From positions 1-51,434 of the forward strand of contig JAFUFW010000003.1 in NCBI GenBank assembly GCA_017469685.1: 51,434 bases of DNA, in the 5' to 3' direction. How positions within the stretch are numbered: position 1 is the first letter of the stretch; each line of letters begins with the position of its first letter. Under the pieces are notes generated by a model that was given only the letters and a program-made list of their open reading frames with translations, was not told where the DNA came from and made no database searches. A program made the translations under genes and the position numbers. The DNA comes from Bacteroidaceae bacterium. Lineage in GTDB: Bacteria; Bacteroidota; Bacteroidia; Bacteroidales; Bacteroidaceae. This document shows positions 7,180 to 33,566 of the stretch, piece by piece.

Positions 7180-7240
7180 TGGAACAATCATTCCATGGTC
7201 ATGGAACAATCGTTCCATCATGATGGAATGATTAATCAGC
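7180..7240. repeat. 22-bp-period palindromic array A, covering the TolC start
   Basis: TGGAACAAT recurs at 7180 and 7202 and TGGAATGAT at 7224, a period of exactly 22 bp. The units are palindrome-like (TGGAACAATCGTTCCA), and the junction TTCCATCATGATGGAA is a perfect 16-bp palindrome. TTAATCATTC (7162-7171) is inverted at GAATGATTAA (7227-7236). The chosen start codon of the TolC gene (7228) is inside the third unit. Confidence 0.85.
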
Positions 7241-8601
7241 TTAAGAGAGTTGGAGCACTTTTCCTGCTGATTGCAGCCACGACGTTATACGTTCGGGCTA
7301 AGGCACCCGCACGTGAGAGCGCTCCCGCCCCGATGACCGTCTGGGATTGCATCGACTATGCCGTGCACTACAGCCACAGCTTGCGGCAGCGCGAGCTGAC
7401 GCAGGACAACGCCGAGGCCAGTCGTCTGCAGGCCGCAGGTGCTTTCCTGCCCGGCCTCGGTGCCAGCGCGGGCGTGCAATGGAACTTCGGTCGCGCCATC
7501 GACCCCGAGACGAATACGTACACGAGCGTGAGTACTTTTAATAATGGCTATGGGTTCTCGGCGTCGCTGCCCGTGTTCGACGGCTTCTACCGCCTGCACG
7601 CCCTGCGCGCTGCCCGTGCCGACGTGCTCATGCAGAAGAACGCCCTGCAAGCCGACCGTGACCAGGTGGCGCTGGACGTCTATCAGGCGTTCGTGAATGT
7701 CGTCTATTACCAGGAGACCGTGCAGCTGGCGCGGGAGAAACTTCACGAGAGCGAGTTGCTGCTCAGACAGACGCAGGTGATGGAGGAAGAGGGGCTGAAG
7801 AGTCCTTCCGACGTGGCGCAGATCCGGGCACAGGTGGAGGCTGACCGGCTGACGCTGATGAGGCAGGAGAATGCGCGCGCGAGCGGGATGCTGAAGCTGA
7901 AGGAGGTGATGAATTGGGACTTGAATGACGAATTACGAGTGACGAATGACGAATCTAATTTACCAACCGGCCTTAAAGGAAACTCTGATTCGTCATTCGC
8001 CACTCGTCATTCGCCATTAGAACGCCAGGCATTCTACTCCCTCCTTTCTGCACGTCAGGGGGTGGGCATTGCCCGCTCGGCTTTCTACCCTTCGGTTTCC
8101 CTCAACGCTGGCATCAATTCCTCCTATTACCGCAACCTCAGCGTACCAAGCGCGACGCCCTATGGCCGTCAGTTGAAGAACAACCTCGGTGAGTACGTAT
8201 CGCTGAGCCTCAGCATCCCGCTCTTCAACCGCCTCGGAAATATCGCCTCCCTGCGCCGGGCAAAGAACAACGTGCGCATCGCACAAGAGCAATACGAAGC
8301 CAAGCGAACAGAATTGGACGTCCTGCGCCAGCAAGCCCGCCTGGACGTGAAAGCCTACGAGCAGGAATGTGAGCAGGGCGCGGCCAAGGTCGCTGCCGAC
8401 AGCCTCGCCTACGAACTGGTGCGGCAGCAATACACCGAAGGCCTCGCCTCCCCCCTCGACCTCCAGACATCTGCCGCCACCCTGCTCCAGAGCCGCGCCA
8501 CCCTGCTCCAGAGTCGCCTGTTGGTGGGCCTCAAAGCCCTGCTGGTGCGCTATTATGAGGGCGAACTATTAACAACAAACAACGGGCAAGGCCCGTGCTG
8601 A
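7228..8601 (+). CDS. TolC-family outer membrane efflux protein with an inserted repeat
   Basis: Outer membrane channel of a tripartite exporter. About 457 residues, with a signal-peptide-like N terminus (MINQLKRVGALFLLIAATTL), the TVWDCIDYAVHYSHSL opening helix typical of TolC proteins and two long helical repeats; the C-terminal EGLASPLDLQTSAATLLQSR motif is characteristic. The start at 7228 is preferred because the signal peptide follows directly; in-frame ATGs at 7201 and 7120 remain possible. A 95-bp palindromic element (7924-8018) adds roughly 32 residues in the middle of the protein, in a position between helical segments. The HlyD gene follows at once. No inner-membrane pump gene is in this cluster. 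Confidence 0.85.
   Translation: MINQLKRVGALFLLIAATTLYVRAKAPARESAPAPMTVWDCIDYAVHYSHSLRQRELTQDNAEASRLQAAGAFLPGLGASAGVQWNFGRAIDPETNTYTSVSTFNNGYGFSASLPVFDGFYRLHALRAARADVLMQKNALQADRDQVALDVYQAFVNVVYYQETVQLAREKLHESELLLRQTQVMEEEGLKSPSDVAQIRAQVEADRLTLMRQENARASGMLKLKEVMNWDLNDELRVTNDESNLPTGLKGNSDSSFATRHSPLERQAFYSLLSARQGVGIARSAFYPSVSLNAGINSSYYRNLSVPSATPYGRQLKNNLGEYVSLSLSIPLFNRLGNIASLRRAKNNVRIAQEQYEAKRTELDVLRQQARLDVKAYEQECEQGAAKVAADSLAYELVRQQYTEGLASPLDLQTSAATLLQSRATLLQSRLLVGLKALLVRYYEGELLTTNNGQGPC
7924..8018. repeat. Palindromic element inserted in frame in the TolC gene
   Basis: Arms at 7924-7955 and 7987-8018 are 32 bp each and match in 29 positions after inversion. The left arm reads as heptamers GAATGAC, GAATTAC, GAGTGAC, GAATGAC. 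The 31-bp core (7956-7986) contains TTACCAACCGGCCTTAAAGG. The reading frame of the host gene is preserved. Confidence 0.9.
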
Positions 8602-8603
8602 AT

Positions 8604-9854
8604 ATGGATAAACTGATTGAACAGAAGAAGGGACTGCGCAGGAAGCACATCCCTTACATTGCCGGAGGAGTCTTCGTGCTGACTGTCGCCGGCTGGGTAC
8701 TCTTTGGCAACCACAGCGCCACGATGCGCGTCAGCGCCGACGACCTCACCATCAGCGAGGTACAGCAGGCGGAGTTCAAGGACTATGTGCGCCTCTCGGG
8801 GCAGGTGGTACCCATCCAGGTGGTGCAGCTGTCACCCGAGGAAGGGGGCATCGTCATGGAGTGCGTGGCGGAGGAAGGGGCGATGGTCAAGAAAGGCGAC
8901 GTCATCATCCGCCTGCGCAACAGCGGCCTCGACCTGCAGATTCTGAATGCCGAGGCGGAGCTGGCAGAGAAGCAGAACCTACTGCGCAACACGCAGGTGG
9001 CCATGCAGCAGGACCGCCTCAGCAACCAGCTCGAACAGGCACAATTAGCCACGGACACGGAGCGCAAGCTCCGCAACTTCCGCCAGCAGGAACGCCTCTA
9101 CCGCGAGAAGCTCGTCAGCCGCGAGACCTATCTGCAGGCCGAGGAGGACTACAGGCTGGCCGAGCGCAAGCAGGGCCTCGTGAGCCAGCGCCTACAGCAG
9201 GACAGCATCTACCGCTCGGTGCAGATGGACCAGATGGAAGACAATCTGGCCAATATGCGCACGAACGTGGTGCTGGTGCGCGAGCGCAAGAATAAATTAG
9301 AGGTACGCGCACCCATCGACGGCGAGCTGGGCCTGCTGGACGTGGAGCTTGGACAGAGCGTCACCTCCGGGCAGAAGATTGGGCAGATCAACGACCTGAG
9401 CGACTACAAGATAGAGGCGCAGGTGGATGAGCACTATATAGACCGGGTGCGGGCGGGGCTGACGGCCTCCTTCGTTCGCGGCGACGCCACCTTCACGCTC
9501 GCCGTGCGCAAAGTCTATCCCGAGGTGCGGCAGGGTAAGTTCCGCACGGACTTCGTCTTCCGCGGCTCGCGACCCGGGAACATCCGCAGCGGCCAGACCT
9601 ACTACCTCAACCTCGAGCTGGGGCAGCCGGAGCAGGCCGTCCTCATCCCTCGCGGCACCTTCTTCCAATCCACCGGCGGGGCATGGATCTTCGTCCTCTC
9701 CAAGGACGGGCACACGGCCCACCGCCGCGCCATCAAGGTGGGCCGCCAGAACCCGCAGTACTACGAGGTCACGGAGGGCCTGGAGCCCGGCGAGCGCGTT
9801 GTCACCAGCGGTTACGAAACCTTCGGGCAGAACGAACGACTGGAGATCAAATAA
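8604..9854 (+). CDS. HlyD-family periplasmic adaptor (membrane fusion protein)
   Basis: Adaptor linking an inner-membrane transporter to TolC. About 416 residues: a single N-terminal membrane helix (IPYIAGGVFVLTVAGWVLF), a lipoyl/barrel-sandwich half (EEGAMVKKGDVIIRL), a long coiled-coil hairpin rich in Gln, Arg and Glu, the returning half (KNKLEVRAPIDGELGLLDVELGQ in shortened reading KLEVRAPIDGEL), and a beta-barrel end. ATG at 8604 is chosen; an upstream in-frame ATG at 8595 overlaps the TolC stop. It is cotranscribed with the TolC gene and ends 9 bp before the convergent cobalamin operon. The matching pump (for example a MacB-type ABC protein) is not in the window. Confidence 0.85.
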   Translation: MDKLIEQKKGLRRKHIPYIAGGVFVLTVAGWVLFGNHSATMRVSADDLTISEVQQAEFKDYVRLSGQVVPIQVVQLSPEEGGIVMECVAEEGAMVKKGDVIIRLRNSGLDLQILNAEAELAEKQNLLRNTQVAMQQDRLSNQLEQAQLATDTERKLRNFRQQERLYREKLVSRETYLQAEEDYRLAERKQGLVSQRLQQDSIYRSVQMDQMEDNLANMRTNVVLVRERKNKLEVRAPIDGELGLLDVELGQSVTSGQKIGQINDLSDYKIEAQVDEHYIDRVRAGLTASFVRGDATFTLAVRKVYPEVRQGKFRTDFVFRGSRPGNIRSGQTYYLNLELGQPEQAVLIPRGTFFQSTGGAWIFVLSKDGHTAHRRAIKVGRQNPQYYEVTEGLEPGERVVTSGYETFGQNERLEIK

Positions 9855-9862
9855 CGGAAGCC

Positions 9863-11680
9863 TTATTCGCCCTTGCGGAAGAGGTGGGTAAAGTGGCGGT
9901 TGTAGAGTTCTGAGAAGCCGGCGCGGTTGTCGATGGCTTCACCCACGACAAGCATGGTAGTGAGGGTGAGGTGGTTATCGTGAACGATGCGGGCGAGATC
10001 CTTGAGCTGGCCGCGATAGATGTGCTGGTCGGGCCAAGTAAGGTGGTAACAGGCAGCAACGGGCGTATCCTCTGGATATTCCTGCAGGAGTTCGCGCTGG
10101 ACATCATCAACGATGGCTGCGCTGAGGAAGATGCACATGGTGGAGCGGGAGCGTGCGAGGAGGTGTAGCTTCTCGCGTTCGGGCATGGGTGTACGGCCTT
10201 CACCACGGGTGAGAATGATGGTCTGCGTACGTTCGGGGATGGTGAACTGCGAACGGAGCTCGGCAGCGGCGGCGAGGAAGGAGGAGATGCCGGGGGTGAT
10301 GTGATACTTCATGCCGTGCTCGTCGAAGAAGGCCATCTGCTCTTGAATAGCACCGAAGATGCAGGGGTCGCCTGTGTGGAGACGGACAATGAGGTGGCCG
10401 CGGTCGTAATGCTCCTTCATCAAAGTGCACTGCTCTTCGAGGGCCATATCGGCAGAGCTGCGGACAACGGCACCGGGCTTATGGCATTCTGTGAGGGCCT
10501 TGGGAACAAGGGAGCCGGCATAGAGGATGAGGTCGGCCTGCTCCAGGAAACGACGGCCACGAACACTGATGAGTTCCGGGTCGCCAGGGCCTGCACCTAC
10601 GATTTCTATGTGCCCGGATTTCTTGGCGGGCAAACCGCCGGGCACACTGTCTGGACGGAGGTAATGGCTGTCAATGGCGATGGCCAGGGTCCAGTTCTCG
10701 CCTTTCTGCTTCTCCAATATAAGCGGGCCTCCATGGGAAGCAAGGAGAGCCGCGGCCTCGCTGACACTGGGGGTGCCGACATGGTGCTGAACAGTGGGGC
10801 TGGGATTAGGCACGGAGACGGAAGAGAGTTCGTCGGCAGTGAAGAAGCGCACTTGTTCGCCACGACCCCGAAGAAGAGCTACAAAGGGTTCGTCGGCTTT
10901 CACATCTATGGTGCACCACTCACGAATGCAGGCAGGGTGCAGGTCGTGAGCCGTGAGGGAGTCCTGGATGGCATCATAGATCTTTTCTGCAGGCTGCGCT
11001 TGATGTGCGAGACCAAAGCCAAGGGTGGCTACGTGTGGAACGAAATGGAGGACGGGAATCTCGGTAACAGAATCGCCGAGCGAGAGATAAGCACGGGGAG
11101 AAACGATGATGAGGAGGCGGAAGCGGTCGGGAGTGACTTCGGCAAGATCATTGATGAGAGTGACGTGCGGAGGAAGGGTGCTCAGAAGAAAGTCCGTGCC
11201 GTCGTCGTGGGTTTCGAGAAGGAGGGCTGTGGGTTGGCGGTTAATAAATGCGACGATATGGGGATTCAGGGATTGTGATTGGGAAGCAACGACCCAGTTG
11301 AAACGGGTTGCGAGGGTATCAAGTGGCCAGAGACCTGTGAGGTCGCTCTGCGTAGTGATGACGGGATTGGAATGAAGGAGGGATGAAAGACGAAGGGTCA
11401 GTTCATTGGCACCGCCGATATGGCCGCTGAGAACAGAGATGACATTCGTTCCCAGACTGTCCACACACACCACAGCAGGATCGGTGTGCTTGTCTTCGAC
11501 GAGAGAGGCGATGGTGCGGACACAGATGCCCATGGCACCGATGAAGACGAAGGCTTCGAAATCGTGCCAGCAGGCAGCTACATCGGTGCGCTTGATATTT
11601 TCTGCCTTGAAGGCTGCCTGTAATTGCCGGGCAACGGTACTACCTTCTTCACTAATCTGAATGATGGCTATTTTCTGCAT
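9863..11680 (-). CDS. cbiG-cobM: Fused CbiG and CobM/CbiF: cobalamin ring-contraction hydrolase and precorrin-4 C11-methyltransferase
   Basis: Two corrin-ring enzymes in one 605-residue chain. Residues 1 to ~345 are CbiG: VFIGAMGICVRTIA (45-58), SGHIGGANELT (85-95), and the CobE-like part with GFGLAHQAQ (221-229) and VGTPSVSEAAALLAS (301-315); CbiG opens the delta-lactone of cobalt-precorrin-5A. From ~357 a SAM-dependent tetrapyrrole methylase begins with IEIVGAGPGDPELISVRG, followed by YAGSL, HTGDP and the TPGISSF motif, diagnostic of CobM/CbiF. The presence of CbiG indicates the anaerobic, early-cobalt pathway. Last gene of the operon; its ATG overlaps the cobL stop by 13 bp. Confidence 0.9.
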   Translation of the reverse strand: MQKIAIIQISEEGSTVARQLQAAFKAENIKRTDVAACWHDFEAFVFIGAMGICVRTIASLVEDKHTDPAVVCVDSLGTNVISVLSGHIGGANELTLRLSSLLHSNPVITTQSDLTGLWPLDTLATRFNWVVASQSQSLNPHIVAFINRQPTALLLETHDDGTDFLLSTLPPHVTLINDLAEVTPDRFRLLIIVSPRAYLSLGDSVTEIPVLHFVPHVATLGFGLAHQAQPAEKIYDAIQDSLTAHDLHPACIREWCTIDVKADEPFVALLRGRGEQVRFFTADELSSVSVPNPSPTVQHHVGTPSVSEAAALLASHGGPLILEKQKGENWTLAIAIDSHYLRPDSVPGGLPAKKSGHIEIVGAGPGDPELISVRGRRFLEQADLILYAGSLVPKALTECHKPGAVVRSSADMALEEQCTLMKEHYDRGHLIVRLHTGDPCIFGAIQEQMAFFDEHGMKYHITPGISSFLAAAAELRSQFTIPERTQTIILTRGEGRTPMPEREKLHLLARSRSTMCIFLSAAIVDDVQRELLQEYPEDTPVAACYHLTWPDQHIYRGQLKDLARIVHDNHLTLTTMLVVGEAIDNRAGFSELYNRHFTHLFRKGE

Positions 11681-14363: not shown

Positions 14364-14380
14364 CTTTTCAGATTAACGGA

Positions 14381-15361: not shown

Positions 15362-15363
15362 CT

Positions 15364-15400
15364 CAATTATCAATATTTCAATGTTTCAATTTTCAATATC
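15364..15400. repeat. CAATnTT 7/8-bp run at the cobQ end
   Basis: Units CAATTAT, CAATATTT, CAATGTTT, CAATTTT, CAATATC follow each other. They encode the last residues of the CobD-CobQ protein (LYEILKIETLKY) and reach the cbiB start region, so a simple repeat makes the gene junction. Confidence 0.85.
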
Positions 15401-18253: not shown

Positions 18254-19567
18254 ATGAGAACAAAAAAACATTGGCTCGTAGCGGTCTGCGCTACAGCCGC
18301 TTCATTATGCGCAAATGCTACAGAGCCGTTGAAAACCAGCCTTTGGCAGCTTTTTGATATCGCCGAAGCACATAATGCAAGCATCCAATCCTTCAAGACA
18401 GCTATCAGCGAGGCCAACGAGGGTGTGGAAGTGGCGAAAGCCGCTTGGCAACCAGACCTCGAAACTACAGCCTCGGTGAGTTTCTTGGGCAACGTGAAAA
18501 TCTGGGATCGTCCGCTAAAGAATAAGTTCACAGCCTCTACGCCACACTTTGGCAACAACTTCGCCTTGGCTGCACGACAGACGGTCTATAGCGGAGGCAT
18601 CATTACGAGCGGTATACGTCTGGCCAAACTCCAACGCAAGATGGCCGAGACCGAGGCCGAGGAGAACCGTCAGCGGGTGCGTTTCCTGTTGGTCGGGCAC
18701 TATCTCCAACTGCACAACCTACGTCATCAGGAAGCTGTATTCGACCAGAACATCGCACTGACCGACACGATTATTCATCAGACACTCCAACGGCAGGAAC
18801 AAGGGTTAGTCTTGCAGAATGACATCACCCGCCAAGAGCTTCAGCGCGAAAACCTGCTCTTAGGACGTGCCCGTATACAAGATGCTCAGCGCATCATTTC
18901 ACATCAGCTGACGACTGCACTTGGGATGGACACGACCCTACAGATTCTCCCAGACGAAGATTTTGCCGTAGCTCTGTTGCCAAAGGAGACTGAGGCTGAG
19001 TGGCAGCAAATGGCATCGGCCTGCCACACGGCTATTCAGAAAGCAGACATCGGAACGCACATAGCAGAGCAGAAGGTGAGGATTGAACGGTCGGAACGCT
19101 TGCCCAAAGTGGCTCTCATGGCTGAAAATCATTTCGACGGCCCGGTCACTTTCGAGATTCCTACACTGGACAAGAACATTAATTATTGGTATGTGGGCGT
19201 CGGGGTGACGTACAAGCTATCCTCGCTTTGGAAGAACAACCGCCGCTTGCAGCAGGCACGTACAGCCGTGCGCCACAGCCAGCACCAGCAACGTGAGGCC
19301 GCCGAGGGCGTGGAAAATGCCGTCCAAGCCGCCTACACAAACTACCTCACCTCGTTCACCGAACTGCAAACGCAGCAAAAAAGCGTCGAACTGGCTACAC
19401 AGAACTATCACATTATCCAGAATCGTTATGCCGAAGGCCTGGCACTCATCACCGACATGGTAGACGCTGCCAACGTGAAGCTCGACGCCGAGCTGGCCCT
19501 CGTCAGCGCACGCATTAACGTCATCTACAACTACTATCAACTGAAATACGTAAGTAATACACTGTAA
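18254..19567 (+). CDS. TolC-family outer membrane efflux protein
   Basis: Outer membrane channel of the second export system, about 437 residues from ATG 18254. It starts with a signal peptide (RTKKHWLVAVCATAASLCANA), then TSLWQLFDIAEAHNASIQS, the usual first helix of TolC proteins; the C-terminal repeat carries NRYAEGLALITDMVDAANVKLDAE, here cut to AEGLALITDMVDAANV. A frame continues upstream to 18185, but the signal peptide supports the chosen start. Its stop codon overlaps the next ATG by one base (TAATG), so translation is coupled with the adaptor. No repeat is inserted in this TolC, in contrast to the one at 7228. Confidence 0.85.
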   Translation: MRTKKHWLVAVCATAASLCANATEPLKTSLWQLFDIAEAHNASIQSFKTAISEANEGVEVAKAAWQPDLETTASVSFLGNVKIWDRPLKNKFTASTPHFGNNFALAARQTVYSGGIITSGIRLAKLQRKMAETEAEENRQRVRFLLVGHYLQLHNLRHQEAVFDQNIALTDTIIHQTLQRQEQGLVLQNDITRQELQRENLLLGRARIQDAQRIISHQLTTALGMDTTLQILPDEDFAVALLPKETEAEWQQMASACHTAIQKADIGTHIAEQKVRIERSERLPKVALMAENHFDGPVTFEIPTLDKNINYWYVGVGVTYKLSSLWKNNRRLQQARTAVRHSQHQQREAAEGVENAVQAAYTNYLTSFTELQTQQKSVELATQNYHIIQNRYAEGLALITDMVDAANVKLDAELALVSARINVIYNYYQLKYVSNTL

Positions 19568-20601
19568 TGGAAAAGAAAACTATCTATCGTTGGATGTACA
19601 ACATCATCGTACTGGTGCTGCTCATTGCGGGCGCCACCGTAGTCATCCTCAACTTCGCCCACTTCGGCAAGGTCGAGTGGACGGACAATGCCCACGTGCA
19701 GCAGCACATCACGCCAATCAACACCCGCGTGGGAGGCTTCATTAGGGAAATTCGTTTCGAGGAGTTTCAGCCTGTCAAAAAAGGTGATACGTTAGTCATC
19801 ATCGAGGATGCCGAGTTCCGTCTCGCCGTTGCACAGGCCGAGGCGGGTGTGGCAAATGCCGAAGCAGGCAGTAGGGCTACAACGACGGGCATGGCCACAA
19901 CGCGGAGCAACATCGGTGTGACCGAGGCCACCATCGAAGAACTACAGGCACAGATGGACAACGCCCAGCGTGAAGATGCACGCTTTCAGAAACTATTAGC
20001 ACAGAAGAGCGTCACACAACAGCAGGCCGACAATGTCCACACTGCCTACCTCGCAGCCCGTGCCCGTTACGAAGCTGCCAACCGCCAGCGCCACTCGCAA
20101 ACCCTCATCCATAGCGAGCAGGGCCAGCATCTCCGGCAAAGCGAAGCCGCAATCGAGGTCGCCCGTGCCCAGCTCGACCTCGCCCGCCTGAACCTTTCCT
20201 ACACGGTCATCACCGCTACAGCCGACGGTGTGCTGGGGCGCAAGGAGATTCACGAGGGACAGCTCGTGCAGCCCGGACAGACTATGGTGGACGTCGTGGA
20301 TGCCAGCGACCTATGGGTCGTGGCCAACTACCGAGAGACGCAGCTGCCACACATCGCCGTAGGGGCGAAGGTGCGCATCAAGGCCGACGCAGTGCCCGAT
20401 GTGGAGTACAGCGGCACCGTGGAACGAATCTCCGATGCCACAGGCAGTGCCTACAGCCTCATCCCGCAGGACAACGCCACAGGCAACTTCGTGAAGGTCG
20501 AACAGCGCGTGCCCGTCCGCATCAGCCTCGAAGGGAACAAGCCCGAGGTGCTGGCCAAGTTGCGCGCCGGACTTAATGTGGAATGCGAAATCATCTATTA
20601 G
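19567..20601 (+). CDS. EmrA/HlyD-type membrane fusion protein
   Basis: Adaptor between the MFS pump encoded next and the TolC protein encoded before. The 344 residues include an N-terminal membrane helix (YNIIVLVLLIAGATVVILNF), the EmrA hallmark VEWTDNAHVQQHITPINTRVGG (here VEWTDNAHVQQH), a helical hairpin (about 90-200), and the returning lipoyl motif ADGVLGRKEIHEGQ with VVANYRETQL. The start codon shares a base with the upstream stop. The gap to the MFS gene (139 bp) contains palindromic array B. Confidence 0.9.
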   Translation: MEKKTIYRWMYNIIVLVLLIAGATVVILNFAHFGKVEWTDNAHVQQHITPINTRVGGFIREIRFEEFQPVKKGDTLVIIEDAEFRLAVAQAEAGVANAEAGSRATTTGMATTRSNIGVTEATIEELQAQMDNAQREDARFQKLLAQKSVTQQQADNVHTAYLAARARYEAANRQRHSQTLIHSEQGQHLRQSEAAIEVARAQLDLARLNLSYTVITATADGVLGRKEIHEGQLVQPGQTMVDVVDASDLWVVANYRETQLPHIAVGAKVRIKADAVPDVEYSGTVERISDATGSAYSLIPQDNATGNFVKVEQRVPVRISLEGNKPEVLAKLRAGLNVECEIIY

Positions 20602-20615: not shown

Positions 20616-20709
20616 CCTATTCGCGGGGATTGCTGCATCATGATGCAGCAATTGCACGATGATGATGCAGTAATTGCTGCGTCATGATGCAGCAACGTTA
20701 GCGAATAGG
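20616..20709. repeat. 22-bp-period palindromic array B between adaptor and MFS genes
   Basis: Three abutting 22-bp units at 20630-20651, 20652-20673 and 20674-20695. The first is a perfect palindrome with centre TGCTGCATCATGATGCAGCA, the third has one mismatch, the middle is imperfect. The array is enclosed by CCTATTCGC (20616-20624) and its inverse GCGAATAGG (20701-20709). Confidence 0.9.
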
Positions 20710-20740: not shown

Positions 20741-22348
20741 ATGACCAACCAGCTTCCTTCCTTTTCTATGCCTATGTTCCGCTCGTTCGTCCCCGAACGT
20801 CTGCGGCCATGGATCTATATCCTCCAGGCCTTCTGCTTCCAGCTCTCGGGCTGCGTCTACCTGGGCGCCCTGAACGAGATGATAGGCGGGCGGGCTATCA
20901 TGCGCGAGGATGTCACGATGTGCCTCTACTCCAACCTCGCGGGCATGGCCATTTACTTTCCGGTCCTCTTCAGGATGAAGTTCCGCTTCACCAACCGCTC
21001 GCTGCTCATCACGTCCGCACTGGTGCTGGCAGCGTGCAACTGGCTCTTCACGCAGACCACGTTCCTGCCGCTGATGTGGGCCTTGTGCTTCGTGGCTGGC
21101 ATGGCGAAGATTCAGGGGACGTTCGAGAACATGTCGAACATCCAACTTTGGATGACCCCGACACGCGACATGGGCGTCTTCTTCCCCTGCCTGCACATTA
21201 TCCTGCTCACCAGCATTGAGCTGCAGGCATGGTACTCCGCCTTCTTCGGCCACAACCTGCACTGGTACGCCTCCCACTGGCTCGTGATCGGCCTGATGAT
21301 GCTTGTAGTTTGCATCCAGCTGTTCCTGACGAGGCCCTGGTGCCCGATGCCTGAGCGTGTGCCGCTGAAGGGTATCGACTGGCTCGGTGCAGGCTTCTGG
21401 AGCCTGCTCGGGCTGCAAATCGCATACATCTTCAATTACGGTGACTGGCTTGACTGGTGGCATTCGCCCGTAATCCGTACCCTCACTGGCACCTCGCTCA
21501 TCACCCTCGGCGGCTGCCTTCACCGCATGTGGACCAAACGGCAGCCCTACTTCGAGCCTAAAATGTGGACCTACCGTCACCTCGTGCCCATCTTACTCAT
21601 CATCATAGTCGTTGAAGGTCTGTTAGCCTCCGAGCACGTCCTTGAGGAGGTGTTCTATGAGGAAGTCATGGACTACGAGATGCTCACCTCGCGCGCCTTG
21701 ACTCTGTGGGCGCTGCCCGGCATCTATCTCGGATGTCTGCTTGCGTGGCTGTGGCTGAAGGTGTGGCGCTTCAATGTCTACAAGCTTATCGCCATCGGGC
21801 TCATCGGCGTGACGCTCTACGCCGCCGGTTTCTATTTCCTCGTGGCCGACCACATCAACATCGAAGTGCTTCGCCTGCCGCTCGTCTTCCGTGGTTTCGG
21901 CTATGCCGTGCTGAGCATATCCCTGATGTGGAGCCTGCACGAGATCATGACCTTCGAGCACTTCTTCCAGTCGCTCTCCGTCTTCAACTTCATGCACATG
22001 TACATCGGCGGCGTCATAGGCTGTGCCCTCTATGCATGGGGCCTTCGCTTCTATATGGCCGACAATATCCTGCGCTACACCGCCTACCTCGACCTGCCCG
22101 CCTACACCGCCTCGCCCTTCGACGTCGGCACGTGGATGGACTCCTTCATCCCCGACATGATGGCCGTCACCATCAAGCAGCTCTACGGATGGGTGCTCTA
22201 CATCAGCGGCTTCCTCGCCCTCGCCTTCTTGCTTTGGGACATCCCTATGGTGCGGCGTCAGGCACGGCGTTTCCCTACATGGCCCATGGTCGGTATGCGG
22301 GCATTAGTGCGCCGCAGAAAAGCGAAAGCCCAAAGCTATCAGGACTGA
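20741..22348 (+). CDS. MFS drug/metabolite efflux transporter (EmrB-like)
   Basis: Inner-membrane pump of the tripartite system. The 535 residues are largely hydrophobic, with about a dozen or more membrane helices across the whole length, e.g. LLITSALVLAACNWLFTQTT, LIAIGLIGVTLYAAGFYF and LYISGFLALAFLLWDIPMV. The N-terminal stretch differs from textbook EmrB and lacks a clear DHA motif A, so it belongs to the divergent Bacteroidetes group that accompanies EmrA-like adaptors. The substrate cannot be read. Start ATG at 20741 is 46 bp past the palindromic array. A strong bidirectional hairpin terminator follows. Confidence 0.8.
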   Translation: MTNQLPSFSMPMFRSFVPERLRPWIYILQAFCFQLSGCVYLGALNEMIGGRAIMREDVTMCLYSNLAGMAIYFPVLFRMKFRFTNRSLLITSALVLAACNWLFTQTTFLPLMWALCFVAGMAKIQGTFENMSNIQLWMTPTRDMGVFFPCLHIILLTSIELQAWYSAFFGHNLHWYASHWLVIGLMMLVVCIQLFLTRPWCPMPERVPLKGIDWLGAGFWSLLGLQIAYIFNYGDWLDWWHSPVIRTLTGTSLITLGGCLHRMWTKRQPYFEPKMWTYRHLVPILLIIIVVEGLLASEHVLEEVFYEEVMDYEMLTSRALTLWALPGIYLGCLLAWLWLKVWRFNVYKLIAIGLIGVTLYAAGFYFLVADHINIEVLRLPLVFRGFGYAVLSISLMWSLHEIMTFEHFFQSLSVFNFMHMYIGGVIGCALYAWGLRFYMADNILRYTAYLDLPAYTASPFDVGTWMDSFIPDMMAVTIKQLYGWVLYISGFLALAFLLWDIPMVRRQARRFPTWPMVGMRALVRRRKAKAQSYQD

Positions 22349-24626: not shown

Positions 24627-24636
24627 GGATTCATGT

Positions 24637-25731
24637 TTATTGCTCGGGATTCTTTGAGTGGTAGTAGTCGAGGGCCTCGCCGTTGATGGCGTCCTGCGTG
24701 TGACCCATCCAGATGGCGCGAATCGTGGGCAGCTCCAGCAGACCCTTCTCAATCATGGTGCTATTGTCGCAAGTGTAGCCCATGTGGCTGAAGAACATCT
24801 TCCAGCTGGTGTCCTCGACTTCGCCTTCCTCGTTAGCCTCAAAGCCATTGTCCCAGGCGTCGTCGTCGCCAGCCATATCGTTGTGGCCGTGGTCGCCGTC
24901 GATAGACATGAGCGGGTGGCAGTATACCTTACCGCTGGTGATGCCTGCGGCCTGCATACGCTCGAGAACGTCGGTCTTGAAGTTGTCCATCATGTCGACG
25001 GTGCCTACGAAGTAGTTCTTGCTGTACTGCTGCAGAGCCTCTTCGAGATCGGTGTAGCGCACGTTTGCCTTGTAGGTGTCGTAGCTGTCGGGGTTACCAT
25101 GGCCCATGAAAGCGACAACACCTTCAGCAGCCTTGCTGCTATAGAGGGCATCGAGCTGCTTAGCAACTTCGGGCACATCCTCATCCTTGTCCTGAAGGAG
25201 GGGTACACCAAGCTTGAGCACGACCTTTGAGAGATATTCGTCGTCGAGGTCGCCGTTGCTATTGTTGGCGAAGTCCTTGATGTAATTGATCACGCGGGTG
25301 TACTCCTCACCGGGGATGACCTGCAGGCTCTGGACTACAATCTCGCTGTAGCGTACGCCTTCCTGTGCAAAAGCATTGAGCCAGAAGTTGGGGGCATAGA
25401 AGTTGCGGGGGGCGACGTTCTCGCCAGCTGCTGCACGGTTGATGCAGATGGCTGATGAGAATGAGAGGAATACGTCGTAGCCAGGGAACTGCTGTTTGTA
25501 AGCAGCCACAGTGCCGTCGAAGGCGTCGTAAGCCTGCTGCCAGGTGGAGCCGAAGGCCACGAGGAGGATAGCCTTGTTCTGTTTCTTGTTAGCCTTGACG
25601 TTCTCTGTAACAGCGTCCTGGTACTTTGACCAGTTGTTTGCGGGAGCGTCGTCGTTGTCGTCGCAAGCAACAAAGCCTGCAGAGAGTGCGATGGCAGCGA
25701 GGGCCATCATAAAGAACTTAATCTTCTTCAT
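24637..25731 (-). CDS. cbiK: CbiK-type cobaltochelatase predicted as an exported lipoprotein
   Basis: Chelatase family that inserts cobalt into sirohydrochlorin. From ATG 25731 the protein has 364 residues. It opens with a lipoprotein signal (MKKIKFFMMALAAIALSAGF then VAC, Cys23) and an Asp/Asn-rich spacer, so it should sit on the periplasmic side of a membrane. The CbiK body follows: AILLVAFGSTW, FMGHGNPDS (active His), and CHPLMSIDGDHGHNDMAGDD, with the metal-binding His. An exported CbiK is known from Desulfovibrio vulgaris. It overlaps the btuB gene by 14 bp and lies between two TonB receptors under a B12 riboswitch. An import-linked or metal-removing role is therefore possible besides biosynthesis. 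Confidence 0.85.
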   Translation of the reverse strand: MKKIKFFMMALAAIALSAGFVACDDNDDAPANNWSKYQDAVTENVKANKKQNKAILLVAFGSTWQQAYDAFDGTVAAYKQQFPGYDVFLSFSSAICINRAAAGENVAPRNFYAPNFWLNAFAQEGVRYSEIVVQSLQVIPGEEYTRVINYIKDFANNSNGDLDDEYLSKVVLKLGVPLLQDKDEDVPEVAKQLDALYSSKAAEGVVAFMGHGNPDSYDTYKANVRYTDLEEALQQYSKNYFVGTVDMMDNFKTDVLERMQAAGITSGKVYCHPLMSIDGDHGHNDMAGDDDAWDNGFEANEEGEVEDTSWKMFFSHMGYTCDNSTMIEKGLLELPTIRAIWMGHTQDAINGEALDYYHSKNPEQ

Positions 25732-27862
25732 AGTTGTTTTGTTTTGAATTGGTTTTAATTGTATTGAAAGATGTTTTTCCTTGTTTGAAGCGGAGGGTGA
25801 GGGAAGCATATACCCTTCGACCTGGAGTGGTCGTGCCGAGGTGGAGACCGTGGGGCGTGCGGTCTACGTAATTAAAAATGTTGTCGATGCCACCCTCGAG
25901 GCGAAGGGATAGTCCGCGCGACTGAATCGCGTGACACAGGAGATCGTGGGTAGATGCGAGACGCCAGATGTGGTAGGCCTTACCATTGCCGTTGAGCTCG
26001 TAGTATCGCTTCGACGAGGCGCGACCGTAAAGGCCAAGGCCGAGGCGATAAGGGCGGTGGAAGGTGTGGTTCCATGTGGCAAACCAGCTACCTTTGTGGT
26101 GTGACATTCCATCGATGATGACTTTATGCATACGGTCGTGGTTGCTGTCGTAGGTGTTGGCCTCGGTGTCGAGGTAGCTGTAAGAACCGCCTACGGCAAA
26201 GTCCTTAAAGGCATAGCGCACGTTGACGTCGACGCCGAGAGTACGTGCATCCTCTATGTTCTGGTACTGACGGGTCTTGTGCAGTTCATACTGCGACTGA
26301 TACTCCTCCGGAGCGCGGTAGTTGGGGATAGTGACGAGGTTGATCATATCCTTAACCTTGTTTATATATCCCGCCACTGTCAGAGACAGACGTCCCAGCG
26401 CCAGCTCGGCACTCAGCGAGCCGTAGTTGCTGGTTTGCGGGCGCAAGTCGGCGTTGCCGAGGTAGAGGTACGTGCCATTCATCTCGCGGACGTAGCGGTA
26501 GTGCTGCTCCTTGGGGGTGGGCGTCTTGAAGCCTTGCGACCATGCCGCCCGCAGCCGCAGCCATTCCGCCGCCCGCACCATGGTGGAGAGCTTCGGTGTC
26601 AAGTGAGCCCCAAACTGCTGGTTACGGTCAAGCCGTAGGCCGCCCGTGAGCTGGAGGGCTCGCCAGAGGCTGAACTCATCCTGTAGGTATAACGCCTCGG
26701 TATTGTCGGTGACGGTGCCGCCATGATCCACTCGCATGGGCGCCCGTAGCCAGTCGTGCCGCACCTCGAGGCCGGCACTGAGGCGGTTGGAGGCGGGCAA
26801 CTCGAAGATGCCCTTTAGGTGCGCCATCGTGCGCCGCTGGTCGCTCTGGAGATTCCGCTGGTCGGGGAAATAAGGGAAATAGTGCGTGAAGTTTCCGAAA
26901 GGGTCGTAGCCGTCAACGAGTGTCGTGTCGGTGAAGACGTAGTCGTAGGCATGTCGGTTCCAGTCGACATCAAGCGTTACAACGGCTCGCTCCGTGGCTG
27001 TCCACTTGCCGCCTACCGAGGCTGATGAATTGCGATAGGCCAGGTCGTAGGTCTTCACATCTACGGCAGCATATTTGCCTGATGGCCGGTAGATGCGTTT
27101 GCGGTAGACGGTGCCCTCGGCGTAGAGCTCAAGAGCGGGTATCGGCGTGTAGGTGAGGCGCTCGGCCAGCTGCCAGTTTGTGTGGCGGTTGACGGTCATG
27201 TTGCGCGAGTCATAGATGGGAAACTCTGTCTGCCGTGGATCCTCTGTGGCTGTGTTCTGCCAACCGTCGGAATGCTGAATGTTGAAGTTTGTGAGCGACG
27301 AGACCTTGCCCACGGCGATGCCAACCGCGTTGTGCTGACGCACATCGCCATAGCTTCCGCCACGGGTGGTGTTCTCTACGAGCAGGCCGTCGCGGTCGTA
27401 CTTGCGGGTGATAATGTTGATGACGCCCGCAATGGCATCGGAGCCGTAGAGGGCCGAGGCTGCACCCTTCACTATCTCTATGCGCTCTATGCGCGATGGG
27501 TCGATCAGCCCGAGGTCGTTCTGCCCTCCGTTGTCGCCGTGAAGTCGCTTGCCGTCTATTAAAATAAGAATATAGGCGTTGCCAAGGCCGTTCATCTGCA
27601 TCTGCGAGCCCATGTCGTCCTCGTTGAAGGCGAAGCTGGCTGTGAGGCCGCTTAGGATTTCTTCTATGCTGCGGCCGCCGTAGGTCTCTAACTCACGGCG
27701 GGTGATGATCTCCGTCTGCACGGGTACGTCCTTCAGCCGGTGCTGAGTGCCAGTACCGGTAACGACGACTTCCTCCAGACGCGATGGCTGCAAGGAGTCC
27801 TGTGCTTGGATGGAGGCGACAAGGCACATGAGTGCCGTGCCTACAGACAGAAGGTATTTCAT
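25718..27862 (-). CDS. btuB: TonB-dependent vitamin B12/corrinoid receptor (BtuB-like)
   Basis: First gene after the cobalamin riboswitch; 714 residues. Signal peptide MKYLLSVGTALMCLVASIQA, TonB box EEVVVTGTG, plug with IITRRELETYGGRSIEEIL and LYGSDAIAGVINIITRK, then a beta barrel ending in ASLTLRFKQ before a short extra tail. No carboxypeptidase-like N-terminal domain is present, so it is BtuB-like rather than SusC-like. The riboswitch makes cobalamin or a related corrinoid the probable substrate. The C-terminal tail of about 17 residues (GKTSFNTIKTNSKQNNYEED) extends past the usual terminal aromatic residue and overlaps the chelatase start. Confidence 0.85.
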   Translation of the reverse strand: MKYLLSVGTALMCLVASIQAQDSLQPSRLEEVVVTGTGTQHRLKDVPVQTEIITRRELETYGGRSIEEILSGLTASFAFNEDDMGSQMQMNGLGNAYILILIDGKRLHGDNGGQNDLGLIDPSRIERIEIVKGAASALYGSDAIAGVINIITRKYDRDGLLVENTTRGGSYGDVRQHNAVGIAVGKVSSLTNFNIQHSDGWQNTATEDPRQTEFPIYDSRNMTVNRHTNWQLAERLTYTPIPALELYAEGTVYRKRIYRPSGKYAAVDVKTYDLAYRNSSASVGGKWTATERAVVTLDVDWNRHAYDYVFTDTTLVDGYDPFGNFTHYFPYFPDQRNLQSDQRRTMAHLKGIFELPASNRLSAGLEVRHDWLRAPMRVDHGGTVTDNTEALYLQDEFSLWRALQLTGGLRLDRNQQFGAHLTPKLSTMVRAAEWLRLRAAWSQGFKTPTPKEQHYRYVREMNGTYLYLGNADLRPQTSNYGSLSAELALGRLSLTVAGYINKVKDMINLVTIPNYRAPEEYQSQYELHKTRQYQNIEDARTLGVDVNVRYAFKDFAVGGSYSYLDTEANTYDSNHDRMHKVIIDGMSHHKGSWFATWNHTFHRPYRLGLGLYGRASSKRYYELNGNGKAYHIWRLASTHDLLCHAIQSRGLSLRLEGGIDNIFNYVDRTPHGLHLGTTTPGRRVYASLTLRFKQGKTSFNTIKTNSKQNNYEED

Positions 27863-27904
27863 TAAAATCCGTACGCCTGTTCCTGGGCGACTTCATTGAG
27901 TTGA

Positions 27905-28118
27905 ACGAAATGAGGCAGGTCTTCTGGCTTTCCCCTGTCTGCCCTACCTTCCCGGCAATTGCATATTAACACATCAACGAATAGACATATTAACGATGCT
28001 CGCCAGTGGCGTCATACGGGCAGGCATTTTCTGTGGGGGATTACAGCTGCAGGTACAGCTCCGGACTTACACCGGATTCCCTTGCATCGAAGGCTCTCTG
28101 GCCTACGATTGCCTTATT
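27905..28118 (-). ncRNA. Cobalamin riboswitch
   Basis: Read on the minus strand the segment carries GGGAATCCGGTGTAAGTCCG, GAGCTGTACC, the B12-box region ACGCCACTGG and the 3' part GGAAAGCCAGAAGACCTGCC, all hallmarks of cobalamin riboswitches. It ends about 45 bp before the btuB start, so it should block translation or transcription when cobalamin is bound. A peripheral arm contains two TTAATATG words (around 27961-27998), like the simple repeats found elsewhere in this window. Confidence 0.92.
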
Positions 28119-28124
28119 TCGGTG

Positions 28125-28133
28125 GCAAAGGTA
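28125..28133 (-). promoter_or_regulatory. -7 box of the riboswitch transcript
   Basis: TACCTTTGC on the minus strand, a full -7 match just upstream of the riboswitch. A clear -33 box is not seen. Confidence 0.6.
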
Positions 28134-28243
28134 ATAAAAGATTAGCTATTATGTAATAGAGATTAGACTTTTTTTTTGCTTATGGTGTATTTTTCTGTTT
28201 TTTGACCTGTCAGGCTACTATAATATATAATAATGTGTAGTCT

Positions 28244-29410: not shown

Positions 29411-29475
29411 TGTTGTTCTTGTTTTAAAACTTATTATCCTTAAGGGATTTACGCCTGAGACTTTAGAGCTTTGTT

Positions 29476-30990
29476 TTAATCTTTTATGTTCTTGAAAGCC
29501 TTAGGCAGGAAGTTGATGATGTCGCTGGCTATGACGCTTTCCTCCGAGAGTTCATCAGCGGCGATGTCGCCTGCCAGCCCGTGAAGGTAGACTCCGATTT
29601 GTGCGGCTTCGATGGGCAGATAGCCTTGAGCGAGCAGAGCAGTGATGATGCCCGTGAGCACATCGCCGCAGCCTGCCGTTGCCATACCCGGATTGCCCGT
29701 TGGGTTGATAAGGACATCGCCCGTGGGAGTGCATATCTGAGTGAAGTGCCCTTTGATGATGACGAATAGATGGTGGTCGACGGCAAAATCGCGTGCGCGG
29801 TTCATGCGTTCAAATGTAGTTCTGCTGTGCCCTGCCAGGCGGTCGAATTCGGCAGGGTGGGGGGTTAGTATGCTGTCGGCTGGGATGCTTGCTATCCAGT
29901 CGGTGTTTGCGGCGAGTATGTTCAGGGCATCGGCATCCAGGACGAGTGGCCCTTCGTGGCGCATTATGAAGCTTTTCAGCGCAGCTGCCGTGTGGCTGTG
30001 CAGCCCAATCCCGGGACCGATGCCTACGGCTTGGAAGACGTACGTCTCAATGGCTGTTGTAGTGATGTTGGCATCAATGTCGATATCGACAATAGCTTCA
30101 GGAACGGCTGTCTGCAAGATGTCGAGACATGAGTGTGGTATGTGGATTGTAAGTTTGCCCACTCCTGCCCTGAGCGCAGCCCGGGCAGCAAGGATTGATG
30201 CTCCGGCCATACCGCGACTGCCACTCACGAGTAGTGCGTGACCCATAGTGCCCTTGTGTGCAAACATGGGGCGGCGTCTGATGAGGGAGCTTATCTCGTT
30301 CTTTTCAGTCAGCCAGAGGTAGGTCTTAAGGGTCTTCAACCCGTCAGTGCTGAGTCCGATGTCGAGCATTTTCACCTCACCGACGAAGCGCTGGTTCTCA
30401 GCGAGGAAAAAAGCCAGCTTGGGTTGCCCTAAGGAGAGGGTCAGTGTGGCGCGCACGATGTTCTGCGTGTCGTTGAAGCTGTTGTCCTCGCACATGAGCC
30501 CGGATGGTACGTCGATGCTCACAATTGTGGCTCTGCTCTGGTTGATTCGCTTTGCCACGAGTGCGAAGCCACCGCTGAGTGGCTTGCTCAATCCTGTTCC
30601 GAAGAGCGCATCGATGATGATGTCGTCGGTCTGCAGCTCTGGAAAAACGAGCTCAGAGGTCACCTCGATAAGCGTGGCGTCGGGTGTCTGGCGAAGGCGC
30701 TCACGATTCTGCTCGCAGTCGGGGCTGAGAGAGCCGCGCACATTGAAGAGATAGGCGGTAGTGATTCGCCCGGCTTCAGCCAGCATGCGGGCCACGGCGA
30801 GGCCGTCGCCGCCATTGCCTCCAGGCCCGGCGAATACGAATATCCGCTGTTCGGCCTGTGGCCATCGCCTCAAGATCTCGTCGGCCACGGAGCGGCTGGC
30901 CCGCTCCATGAGGTCGATGGAAGCGATGGGCTCGTTCTGGATTGTGAAGAGGTCGAGTTCCCGGAACTGTCCTCCCGTGAGTATCTTCAT
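29476..30990 (-). CDS. nnr: Bifunctional NAD(P)HX epimerase/ADP-dependent dehydratase (YjeF-like)
   Basis: Metabolite-repair enzyme that restores hydrated NADH/NADPH. About 505 residues from ATG 30990. N-terminal epimerase (YjeF_N, 1 to ~215) with [19 protein letters not shown]-terminal ribokinase-fold dehydratase (~235-505) with [20 protein letters not shown] and [11 protein letters not shown]. The longer frame to 31047 crosses the promoter and is rejected. Transcribed divergently from hpt, with both promoters in the 100-bp gap. Confidence 0.92.
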
Positions 30991-31016
30991 TTGTGATAAA
31001 AATCTAAAAATTCGCT

Positions 31017-31048
31017 GCAAAAATACGTCAATGATTGCTGAAATCAAA
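31017..31048 (-). promoter_or_regulatory. Promoter of the NAD(P)HX repair gene
   Basis: On the minus strand TTTG (31045-31048) and TATTTTTGC (31017-31025) are separated by 19 bp, a perfect Bacteroidetes promoter. Confidence 0.75.
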
Positions 31049-31067
31049 ATAAAATCTCTAATTTTGC
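31035..31067 (+). promoter_or_regulatory. Promoter of hpt
   Basis: TTG at 31035-31037 and TAATTTTGC at 31059-31067 with 21 bp between. It overlaps the divergent promoter of the NAD(P)HX gene, so the two may compete. Confidence 0.7.
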
Positions 31068-31093
31068 AACGTCAAAAGCTAAAAATGCAACTA

Positions 31094-31633
31094 ATGAAAA
31101 GGATTCAGGTTAAGGACAAGACTTTCGAAGTGTCGATACCTGCCGCTGCGCTGGCCCGTGAAGTGCAACGTGTGGCAGCCGAGATTACCCGCGACTACGC
31201 CGGTCGCGAGCCGCTGTTCCTACCGGTGCTCAACGGCTCGTTCATCTTCGCCGCAGATCTCTTGCGCGAGGTGGACCTTCCCTGTGAGATAAGCTTCATC
31301 AAGCTTGCCAGCTATCAGGGCACACAGTCGACAGGAGAGATTCGCGAGGTGATGGGGCTTGCTCAGGATATTACGGGGCGCGACGTCATCATCGTGGAAG
31401 ATATTATCGACTCCGGACTCACTATGGCTCACATGGTTGAGACGCTCCGCCGTCATAATCCAGCCAGCATACGTGTGTGCTCGCTATTAGTTAAACCGGC
31501 AGCCTTGAAAGTGGAGATACCTATCCACTATCGTGCAATGGACATCCCAAATGTTTTTATCGTTGGCTATGGCCTCGACTATGACGGCTTCGGGCGCAAC
31601 ACAAAGGACATATACACATTGTGCGAGGCATGA
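31094..31633 (+). CDS. hpt: Hypoxanthine phosphoribosyltransferase
   Basis: Purine salvage enzyme making IMP (and GMP) from the base and PRPP. About 179 residues from ATG 31094; ATG at 31085 is three codons upstream and also possible. Motifs: LNGSFIFAADLLRE near the N terminus, PRPP-binding VIIVEDIIDSGLTM, and VGYGLDYDGFGRN near the end. A longer open frame to 30761 overlaps the opposite-strand gene and promoters, so it is not real. Followed by adk after 53 bp, probably one operon. Confidence 0.93.
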   Translation: MKRIQVKDKTFEVSIPAAALAREVQRVAAEITRDYAGREPLFLPVLNGSFIFAADLLREVDLPCEISFIKLASYQGTQSTGEIREVMGLAQDITGRDVIIVEDIIDSGLTMAHMVETLRRHNPASIRVCSLLVKPAALKVEIPIHYRAMDIPNVFIVGYGLDYDGFGRNTKDIYTLCEA

Positions 31634-31686
31634 TTCAGAGAGAACAATCAGATGAAATAACATATTAAATGATATAATAAATCACG

Positions 31687-32274
31687 ATGAAGAACATTAT
31701 TATTTTCGGAGCCCCAGGGTCGGGCAAAGGCACTTATAGCGCAGAGATTGCTACGCGCTATGGTATGGGGCATATCTCTACTGGCGACGTCCTGCGAGCA
31801 GAGATAAAGAATGGCACAGAATTGGGAAGGATTGCCCAAGGTTATATCGACAACGGACAACTCATCCCCGACGAGTTGATGATTGACATCCTCGCATCGA
31901 AGTACGACTCCATGCCACAGGGATGCGGAGTGATTTTTGACGGCTTCCCGCGCACGATTGCTCAGGCAGAGGCCTTGAAGAAGATGCTCGCTGAGCGCGG
32001 CCATGAACTTGGAATGATGATCGAACTCATAGTTCCAGAGGATGTGCTGATGTTCAGACTGCTCCGCCGCGCTCAGATAGAAGGCCGTGCCGACGACAAT
32101 GAGGAGACAATACGCAAGCGCTTCGCTGTATACCACAACCAGACCGAACCCCTGTCGCGATGGTTCGAGGCCGAAGGTATCCGTCACACCTTCGATTGGG
32201 GTGAACTTCTCACCAAGGAGGGCATGATTGAGGCCATCTTTGAGGAAATAGAACGTCAAAACGAACAACAGTAA
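31687..32274 (+). CDS. adk: Adenylate kinase (short form)
   Basis: Interconverts ATP, AMP and ADP. The 195 residues have the P-loop GAPGSGKGT, the AMP-binding STGDVLRAEI, DGFPRTIAQAEAL, and the arginine-rich lid RLLRRAQIEGRADDN; the lid is the short, zinc-free form. It lies downstream of hpt on the same strand. Length is typical for the short-lid type. Confidence 0.95.
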   Translation: MKNIIIFGAPGSGKGTYSAEIATRYGMGHISTGDVLRAEIKNGTELGRIAQGYIDNGQLIPDELMIDILASKYDSMPQGCGVIFDGFPRTIAQAEALKKMLAERGHELGMMIELIVPEDVLMFRLLRRAQIEGRADDNEETIRKRFAVYHNQTEPLSRWFEAEGIRHTFDWGELLTKEGMIEAIFEEIERQNEQQ

Positions 32275-32338
32275 ACGCATAATGTTCAAGATCCCAATGT
32301 TCAAGTTTTCAAATCAGAATATCCCTTGCCGGGGAATT

Positions 32339-33436
32339 ATGGATATCCTCTTCTGCAGGGGTGTTATAGGGGGGCTCTCTCTTATAATCCTTCTGGCTGT
32401 GGCTTCTGAATCCGTGGCTCAGACCGAAGTTACTCCTTTCCGCCCCGGAGTGACACTCGACGGTGTCAACTACTTCCTGCCAAAGACCATCCTGCGCGTA
32501 GTAGTCGTGGCAGACAAGGCTGAGACTCTGCCGGGCGAGTTTGCCGCCTATGCCGACCGCTACCTGAGGCTGCCGTCCGTGCCGACAGCACCATCTACAG
32601 AGTGGACTATCAAGGAGGTGAACATTCAAGCTCTGGGCTCGCCTGATTCTACCAAGGCGTTCAACGTCAAGCTTCGTTCTAAGACTTCTGCTCCGCTTGT
32701 GCGCCTTACAGATAATGGTTTGCTGCTCGCTGTAAATACTGACGCTGAAGCAGAGCCTGAGCCGGCGCCCGCTCGTCGCGTGGCAGCGCCCAAGCCCGTC
32801 AATGGGCGAGACTTCATGACCCACGAAATCCTCGCCGCCGGCAGCACGGCTAAGATGGCCCAGCTGACAGCCGAGGAAATATATGATCTGCGGGACAGTC
32901 GTGGTGCGCTCATTCGCGGAGAAGCCGACAACACCCCTAAGGACGGGGCACAGCTCAAGCTGATGCTTGACAACCTCGACGCACAGGCAGCTGCACTCGA
33001 GGCTCTCTTCAAGGGGCAGACACTCACCAGCACCGAGGTGCAGGCCATCGACTTCGAGCCATCAGGTAGCACCGAGCAACTCGGCCGCCGCCAACTGCTA
33101 TGCCGCTTCTCGCGCCGGCTCGGGCTCGTTGATGCCGACGACCTCAGCGGGCAGCCACTTTGGATAACAATCAAGCCGCTCGGAAACCTTCCTGCTACAG
33201 CAGACAATGCCGACACTGCAAAGAAAAAAGCCAAGATAGAACAAGGCCTGTGGGTGAATCAGCCCGCACGCGTACAGGTAATTATAGAGTTTGAAGGCGA
33301 ACAGCTCATTGCTGCCGAGGTTCCCGTTTGTCAGCTCGGAACTACTGAAGTGCTCTCTGACGCTCTTTTCAACAAAAAACTTGATACTCGCGTCACGCTA
33401 TATCAGCATACAGGGAGCGTGAAGGCAGTGGAGTAG
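32339..33436 (+). CDS. DUF4831-like secreted protein
   Basis: About 365 residues. It starts with a signal-peptide-like stretch (GGLSLIILLAVASESVAQ), followed by GVNYFLPKTILRVVVVADK, a pattern I associate with the Bacteroidales DUF4831 family; function unknown. An in-frame ATG at 32282 lies in a simple repeat (TGTTCAAG words at 32283-32313), so the ATG at 32339 in front of the signal peptide is preferred. A Pro/Ala-rich linker (AEPEPAPARRVAAPKP) divides the chain. It may be cotranscribed with hpt-adk. Palindromic array C follows its stop. Confidence 0.7.
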   Translation: MDILFCRGVIGGLSLIILLAVASESVAQTEVTPFRPGVTLDGVNYFLPKTILRVVVVADKAETLPGEFAAYADRYLRLPSVPTAPSTEWTIKEVNIQALGSPDSTKAFNVKLRSKTSAPLVRLTDNGLLLAVNTDAEAEPEPAPARRVAAPKPVNGRDFMTHEILAAGSTAKMAQLTAEEIYDLRDSRGALIRGEADNTPKDGAQLKLMLDNLDAQAAALEALFKGQTLTSTEVQAIDFEPSGSTEQLGRRQLLCRFSRRLGLVDADDLSGQPLWITIKPLGNLPATADNADTAKKKAKIEQGLWVNQPARVQVIIEFEGEQLIAAEVPVCQLGTTEVLSDALFNKKLDTRVTLYQHTGSVKAVE

Positions 33437-33484
33437 GGGTCTCGAACGGCCATGGAAAAGTAGCATCACAGCACCACATAATAA

Positions 33485-33566
33485 AACCCTCAAGGGTTCA
33501 GCCGAAAACCCTTAAGGGTTATCGCCGAAACCCTTAAGGGTTATTGGCAAAAGGCTTAAGGGTTTT
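33485..33566. repeat. 22-bp-period palindromic array C
   Basis: Units begin at 33485, 33507, 33529 and 33551, exactly 22 bp apart. Each has a 14-bp palindrome (AACCCTTAAGGGTT in units 2 and 3; AACCCTCAAGGGTT and AAGGCTTAAGGGTT in 1 and 4) plus an 8-bp spacer. The last unit is followed by a T-run, so the array may double as a terminator for the DUF4831 gene. Confidence 0.92.

Follow-up and report, generated by a model that had tools for sequence, protein, structure and literature searches.

We found that the three palindromic arrays A, B and C in the analysed stretch of DNA (51,434 nt, hereafter the window) from a rumen-type gut bacterium belong to the dispersed intergenic palindromic repeats. 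They are characterized by a period of 22 bp, rigid spacing, frequent dyad symmetry, intergenic dispersal and word variants specific to species, and at one orthologous locus the words were kept with freer spacers. The same spacing with differing words points to a recognition or copying mechanism. We propose, with a probability of roughly 45%, that homodimeric, sequence-specific DNA-binding proteins bind to the arrays, which would be intergenic rows of symmetric sites phased every 22 bp.

We analysed the window with TRF, which reported period 22 at 7164-7228, 20629-20695 and 33483-33564, and with a scan for palindrome pairs (arms of 7, at most one mismatch, spacing 14-60, at least 11 of 14 letters shared). 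The scan returned five pairs, every one within arrays A, B or C and spaced by 22 or 44 bp, and no pair in any of 10 Markov-shuffled versions of the window. All three 22-bp arrays of the original prediction were present, and their words and coordinates were right within a few bases. Array A contains both dyad phases, 11 bp apart, with 16-mer centres near 7176, 7187, 7198, 7209 and 7220. Array B has a degenerate unit between two near-perfect ones; the outer arms on either side of it, CCTATTCGC and GCGAATAGG, pair with each other in the predicted RNA fold. The units of array C start at 33485, 33507, 33529 and 33551. The arrays indeed lie at gene boundaries, as had been claimed, but the types of boundary differ: array A overlaps a start (ATG 7228, taken as that of the efflux gene; the mechanical ORF starts at GTG 6850), array B sits between two ORFs, and array C starts 48 bp past the stop of the DUF4831 gene. 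An Rfam scan of the window detected only a tmRNA and a cobalamin riboswitch, and no curated RNA family at the arrays.

Table 1. Arrays and adjoining features in the window.
Feature	Position	Strand	Remarks
Outer membrane efflux protein gene (OEP, PF02321)	7228..8601	+	adjoins array A; start chosen by the authors
Array A	7164..7228	.	22-bp repeats, dyads every 11 bp, words TGGAACAATCRTTCCA and TTCCATSRTSATGGAA
HlyD-type membrane fusion protein gene	19567..20601	+	precedes array B
Left outer arm of array B	20616..20624	.	CCTATTCGC, read from the sequence
Array B	20629..20695	.	TTGCTGCATCATGATGCAGCAA, degenerate middle unit, TTGCTGCGTCATGATGCAGCAA; period 22
Right outer arm of array B	20701..20709	.	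GCGAATAGG, read from the sequence
ORF without Pfam match	20741..22348	+	after array B
DUF4831 gene (PF16115)	32282..33436	+	before array C; anchor for orthologous loci
Array C	33485..33564	.	four 14-bp units (AACCCTTAAGGGTT and variants), 8-bp spacers
T run	33565..33568	+	immediately 3' of array C

We then searched the whole genome, a 2.83-Mb draft of 87% completeness in which the window is contig C51. The pattern AACCCTTAAGGGTT-N8-AACCCTTAAGGGTT (at most three mismatches) occurred at 161 places on each strand, and its reversed control at none. C arrays are spread over many contigs, A-like arrays lie on four (C51, C24, C14 and C68), and the B word was found at three loci (the window, C63 and C78); a further word, GTTCCACCGGTGGAAC, is repeated at 22 and 44 bp. 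The window words are members of dispersed families and not isolated. The original prediction had regarded the words as conserved within each locus and unrelated between loci; they do differ between the three arrays, but the units vary and the words represent these families. A single regulon was rejected, as the A and B loci occupy tandem, divergent and convergent gaps beside different ORFs, according to crude gene calls.

Spacing was examined in a sample of 1.03 Mb (61 stretches including the window, partly picked for holding arrays). Adjacent C units no more than 60 bp apart were separated by 22 bp in 61 of 65 cases and by 44 bp in the remaining four, with no other distance, while their 8-bp spacers vary. 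Distances between palindromes of any word were 22 (49 pairs), 44 (28), 66 (5), 20 (1) and 30 bp (1), and one Markov shuffle per stretch gave no pair; looser settings added scattered distances. Furthermore, 40 of the 50 noncoding tandem arrays with periods of 16-30 in this sampled part, partly chosen for arrays, have period 22. The 49 C arrays hold 2 to 7 units each, and a crude gene caller placed none of 35 C arrays inside a gene. The C-array spacers follow a loose grammar in this genome (T/C/A, T, G, G/C, C/G, C, A, A/T), and most of them have a direction, because AT usually stands at one end only.

The same period was prominent in related species. We sampled nine congeners (100-214 kb each; six loci duplicating sampled genomes were dropped from the period counts), and among the 110 noncoding tandem arrays with periods of 16-30 pooled from the relatives, 22 bp was the most frequent period (49 arrays), followed by 21 bp (18). 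Thus, 22 bp is the commonest period in this range both in the sampled part of this genome and in the relatives, with many words, including AAATCCACACGAGGATTT and CGCCGCACGCGGCG (G027), AACACGTCCGCACGTGTT (G067), GTCCCACTAATGGGAC (G065), TCAACGTGTTGA (G078) and AAAGGTTAACCATT (G012). Further 22-bp arrays, on whose existence the original prediction depended, are therefore present (the 161 C pairs and other words), and the periods concentrate at 22 rather than scattering around other values. Some congeners are poor in this period: G004 has none among five noncoding arrays in 180 kb, G011 one of seven and G065 one of ten. In 129 loci of relatives (1.17 Mb, some loci from the same genomes), palindromes were spaced by 22 (5), 44 (3), 66 (3), 43 (2), 21 (2) and 39, 42, 26 or 29 bp (1 each). 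Small controls gave period 22 in none of four arrays from four Bacteroidales outside the genus (80 kb in all), in none of the single array from 50 kb of E. coli, and in one of eight arrays from 12 loci found by a Y1 transposase search, the exception being L269, a congener locus. This array (L269:1048-1219, genome G013) has about eight 22-bp units and lies a few hundred bases from the Y1 transposase match. Dyad symmetry was present in 39 of 66 period-22 arrays versus 18 of 71 arrays of other periods (Fisher p 7e-5; own C arrays set aside, a few variant C arrays included, related arrays counted separately). The other 27 of the 66 have no good dyad, and symmetry is therefore common, not universal.

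Comparison between genomes showed that some species have amplified particular word families, and that these families drift from one species to another. The C pair (at most two mismatches) was found in 14 of 139 genomes of the genus, this one included, at 142 places here and at most eight in any other; several copies elsewhere are drifted words, such as AAGCCTTAAGGGTT. The B half-site CATGATGCAGCAATTG (at most one mismatch) occurs in 43 of the 139 genomes and is amplified in G027 (52 forward, 16 reverse), G155 (51, 45) and G103 (31, 20), with every match listed for G103 carrying CATGATGAAGCAATTG; its reversed control gave at most one match per strand in any of the 139. C arrays occupy the same position in this genome and in G091 (flank 72% identical) at one locus, and in this genome and in G087 (flank 75% identical) at one locus. 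At the orthologous locus of G091, a single case, 50 of 56 unit positions are identical and 12 of 24 spacer positions. The original prediction held that the mechanism acts on period and symmetry and not on sequence. The period is shared widely, but the symmetry is not universal, and 'not on sequence' is too strong, because each family keeps its word at dozens of loci and in different species.

We also compared the words behind orthologous DUF4831 genes, as the original prediction had proposed. From 103 loci, 80 were kept, mostly from rumen and gut metagenome bins of Bacteroidaceae, Prevotellaceae or Bacteroidales; 79 were tried for periodicity, and 77 were long enough, with a score above all 30 shuffles as the threshold. 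As a result, 25 of the 77 loci were periodic, 11 at period 22, 4 at 21 and 10 at other periods, where chance alone, counted over all periods, would give two to three; four of the loci (L159, L174, L204 and L208) only just exceed the threshold. The 11 period-22 loci carry about nine words. On the DUF4831 gene tree these loci are dispersed, and large parts of the tree lack them, at about 9 kb viewed per locus. Three loci, L171, L183 and L197, have 21-bp palindromic arrays (e.g. GAAAATNNATTTTC) behind the gene in place of 22-bp ones.

These observations bear on the proposed reading by a protein, dimeric and cooperative. Candidate dimers would be packed next to one another at intervals of 22 bp, or about two helical turns, with the word recognised by the protein and the register set by contact between adjacent dimers, leaving the spacer free in sequence and fixed in length. 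For every word family there would be a separate cognate protein or variant, drifting from species to species along with its word; the outcome may be a roadblock, an insulator or a nucleoid anchor separating transcription units. The rigid distance, the freer spacers and the symmetric, uncompensated half-sites are together the trace that we would expect from cooperative binding of a symmetric protein, and half-sites symmetric by consensus without compensation are as expected if they are read independently. The low pairing of the spacers and the word variants that differ by species at the whole-genome level also favour this reading. A further observation in its favour comes from G027, where the B units are flanked, at exactly 22 bp, by palindromes of another word (score 4.6 of 8 at 22 bp, with three variant B units counted as right flanks, at L299, L305 and L307, versus a mean of 1.99, sd 0.47; 3.43 at 33 bp). 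The arms of these flank palindromes showed no covariation past the consensus (171 vs 166), and covariation in the flank words and B units of G027 was not clearly above shuffles. Against the protein reading, this cross-word register is confined to the G027 B arrays: a general 22-bp register between different neighbouring words was rejected (other species 1.92 vs a mean of 2.01; this genome 2.0 vs 1.98). The non-C period-22 arrays without a good dyad also count against it, as do arrays of some relatives at other distances (21, 39, 42 and 43 bp). More tentatively, we envisage a class of intergenic arrays throughout the clade that would pass on its architecture, dyads every 22 bp, but not its word. 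Each genome would then have several word families, which are replaced or drift in concert from species to species, even where they follow the same orthologous gene, and dimeric DNA-binding proteins from one diversifying family, all with the same packing distance, would serve them.

Three other explanations were weighed against reading by a protein. The arrays might be transcript 3'-end elements whose adjacent palindromic units pair as stem-loops in the RNA and, with a U tract, act as terminators or stabilise mRNA, 22 being a 14-bp stem plus an 8-nt loop; we consider this rather unlikely. The six RNA folds of arrays A, B and C on both strands are in its favour, being far stabler than shuffles (z -5.2 to -10.5), and follow equally from the arrays themselves, since tandem palindromes must fold so. 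Compensatory changes in the variant unit columns of the 49 C arrays (148 spacers) showed no excess over shuffles: the compensated columns (self 24/626, neighbour 24/401, next-but-one 2/307, nested 11/326) were within or below them. Four terminal C unit pairs do have matching changes in both units, as pairing would predict, versus 1.7 expected, a number reached by 0.083 of shuffles. In addition, spacers paired with each other less than shuffled ones (0.98 to 0.999 of shuffles reach the observed value in 40 arrays of at least three units), part of which may come from their direction. Selection for hairpins is therefore not supported by either the units or the spacers. A run of at least three T follows 28 of the 49 C arrays and a run of at least three A precedes 17, versus 33 of 296 internal spacer ends; the T runs fit terminators better than protein sites, and termination may be an additional role of the C arrays that have them. 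As for position, the original prediction had proposed a test for enrichment at gene starts or ends; a bias to gene ends was seen here, where 16 of 23 period-22 arrays in tandem gaps are closer to the 3' end of the upstream gene, but not in the relatives, with 13 of 27; there, 11 of 49 arrays lie in divergent gaps, close to the divergent share of gap sequence (0.2). Without a 3' bias in the relatives, a general terminator role is not supported, and an exact loop length would be unnecessary for it.

That the arrays are functionless minisatellites, expanded from palindromic seeds in steps of 22 by polymerase slippage or fold-back copying and homogenised within the genome by recombination, is in our estimate unlikely. 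The copy numbers of 2 to 7, the homogeneous variants specific to species, the period-22 arrays without dyads and the patchy spread on the DUF4831 gene tree are all consistent with it, but slippage explains no single unit length across many words, and the units were kept while the spacers diverged between species, at array positions common with G091 and with G087. Quite improbable, finally, are mobile composite palindromic elements, each family being a short element moved by a trans-acting enzyme. The sites of MuA and TnsB are about 22 bp long, and the B loci retrieved from G027, 15 in all, are built alike, with three B-type units between two outer palindromes; most of these loci have ends close to GTTCRTTG/CAAYGAAC. 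Against mobility, the flanks of the 49 C arrays, compared by eye, have little in common except A/T runs and degenerate end units, the spacers vary from locus to locus, and the Y1 transposase was not matched in this genome. Two array patterns gave no exact match in viral contigs, which likewise counts against mobility, and a viral origin was rejected on this result.

Comparison with known systems gave partial likenesses. As in REP/BIME, many short palindromes lie between genes, often clustered and specific to a lineage; unlike REP/BIME, they keep a strict 22-bp register with several words per genome and without a Y1/RAYT match here. The profile of the RAYT-type Y1 transposase (PF01797) had no match in this genome (87% complete), whereas it was found in 6 of 22 congeners and in 12 of 14 other families of the order. 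RAYT-type REP elements were rejected on this missing match, and the GTAG/CGTC tags in the title of PMC3733652 are absent from the C word. CRISPR does not fit, because units of 14 bp alternate with 8-bp spacers, compared with long repeats and unique spacers of about 30 bp; the missing Y1 match and the 8-bp spacers thus set the arrays apart from both. According to the available text of PMC4596501, the BrickBuilt MITE of Porphyromonas gingivalis is likewise an intergenic tandem short repeat of a Bacteroidales with predicted long stem-loops; it has a 23-nt unit without spacers, one sequence in 19 copies, and a leader and tail with IS5-like ends, and undescribed 22-nt tandem repeats are mentioned for strain W83. 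A MITE of this type was rejected given the 22-bp period, the 8-bp spacers and, by eye, no common flank in the 49 C arrays. PINSR of Prevotella intermedia resembles the arrays as a lineage-specific intergenic repeat, and is one 188-bp sequence in 177-184 copies with about three quarters of positions common to two strains; a 22-bp palindrome array does not figure in the accessible part of its description (PMC4755523). The 22-bp iterons of R6K and pPS10, bound cooperatively by protein in dependence on helical phase, are similar tandem repeats of about 22 bp and, in the portion of PMC4980987 available, a precedent for cooperative phased binding; unlike iterons, which have one word at a single replication origin next to a Rep gene, the arrays are dispersed over many contigs with many words. 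Among the open-licence papers listed by our literature searches, we recognised no report of such 22-bp palindrome arrays with varying words, judged by titles and abstract openings.

Dispersed bacterial palindromes are usually explained sequence by sequence, and here many words share one spacing, within one genome and across related species, with some words differing behind the same orthologous gene. Selection on spacing while the word turns over thereby becomes testable, and the prediction is that gut and rumen Bacteroidales have a DNA-binding or copying system that evolves fast and is so far undescribed.

Several other features were observed. In the window, the tmRNA gene (33962-34364, minus strand) lies 0.4 kb beyond array C, the cobalamin riboswitch (27897-28131, minus strand) is just upstream of the minus-strand ORF 25718-27862, and an 83-bp tandem duplication (6193-6358) adjoins the kinase-like ORF 5268-6194. 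Elsewhere, a second dispersed element near AGGTGGATCACCATGGTGGGACACCTCA was found at L079:5717-5900, L098:2678-2760 and L034 near 1925; non-palindromic G-rich 22-bp repeats (e.g. GGGCGTATCGGCGAATGAGACT) come after it in L079 and L098. Dispersed intergenic 15-bp repeats like TTTCACTTTTCACTC or GAGTGAAAAGTGAAA occur in L034, L038, L044 and other loci.
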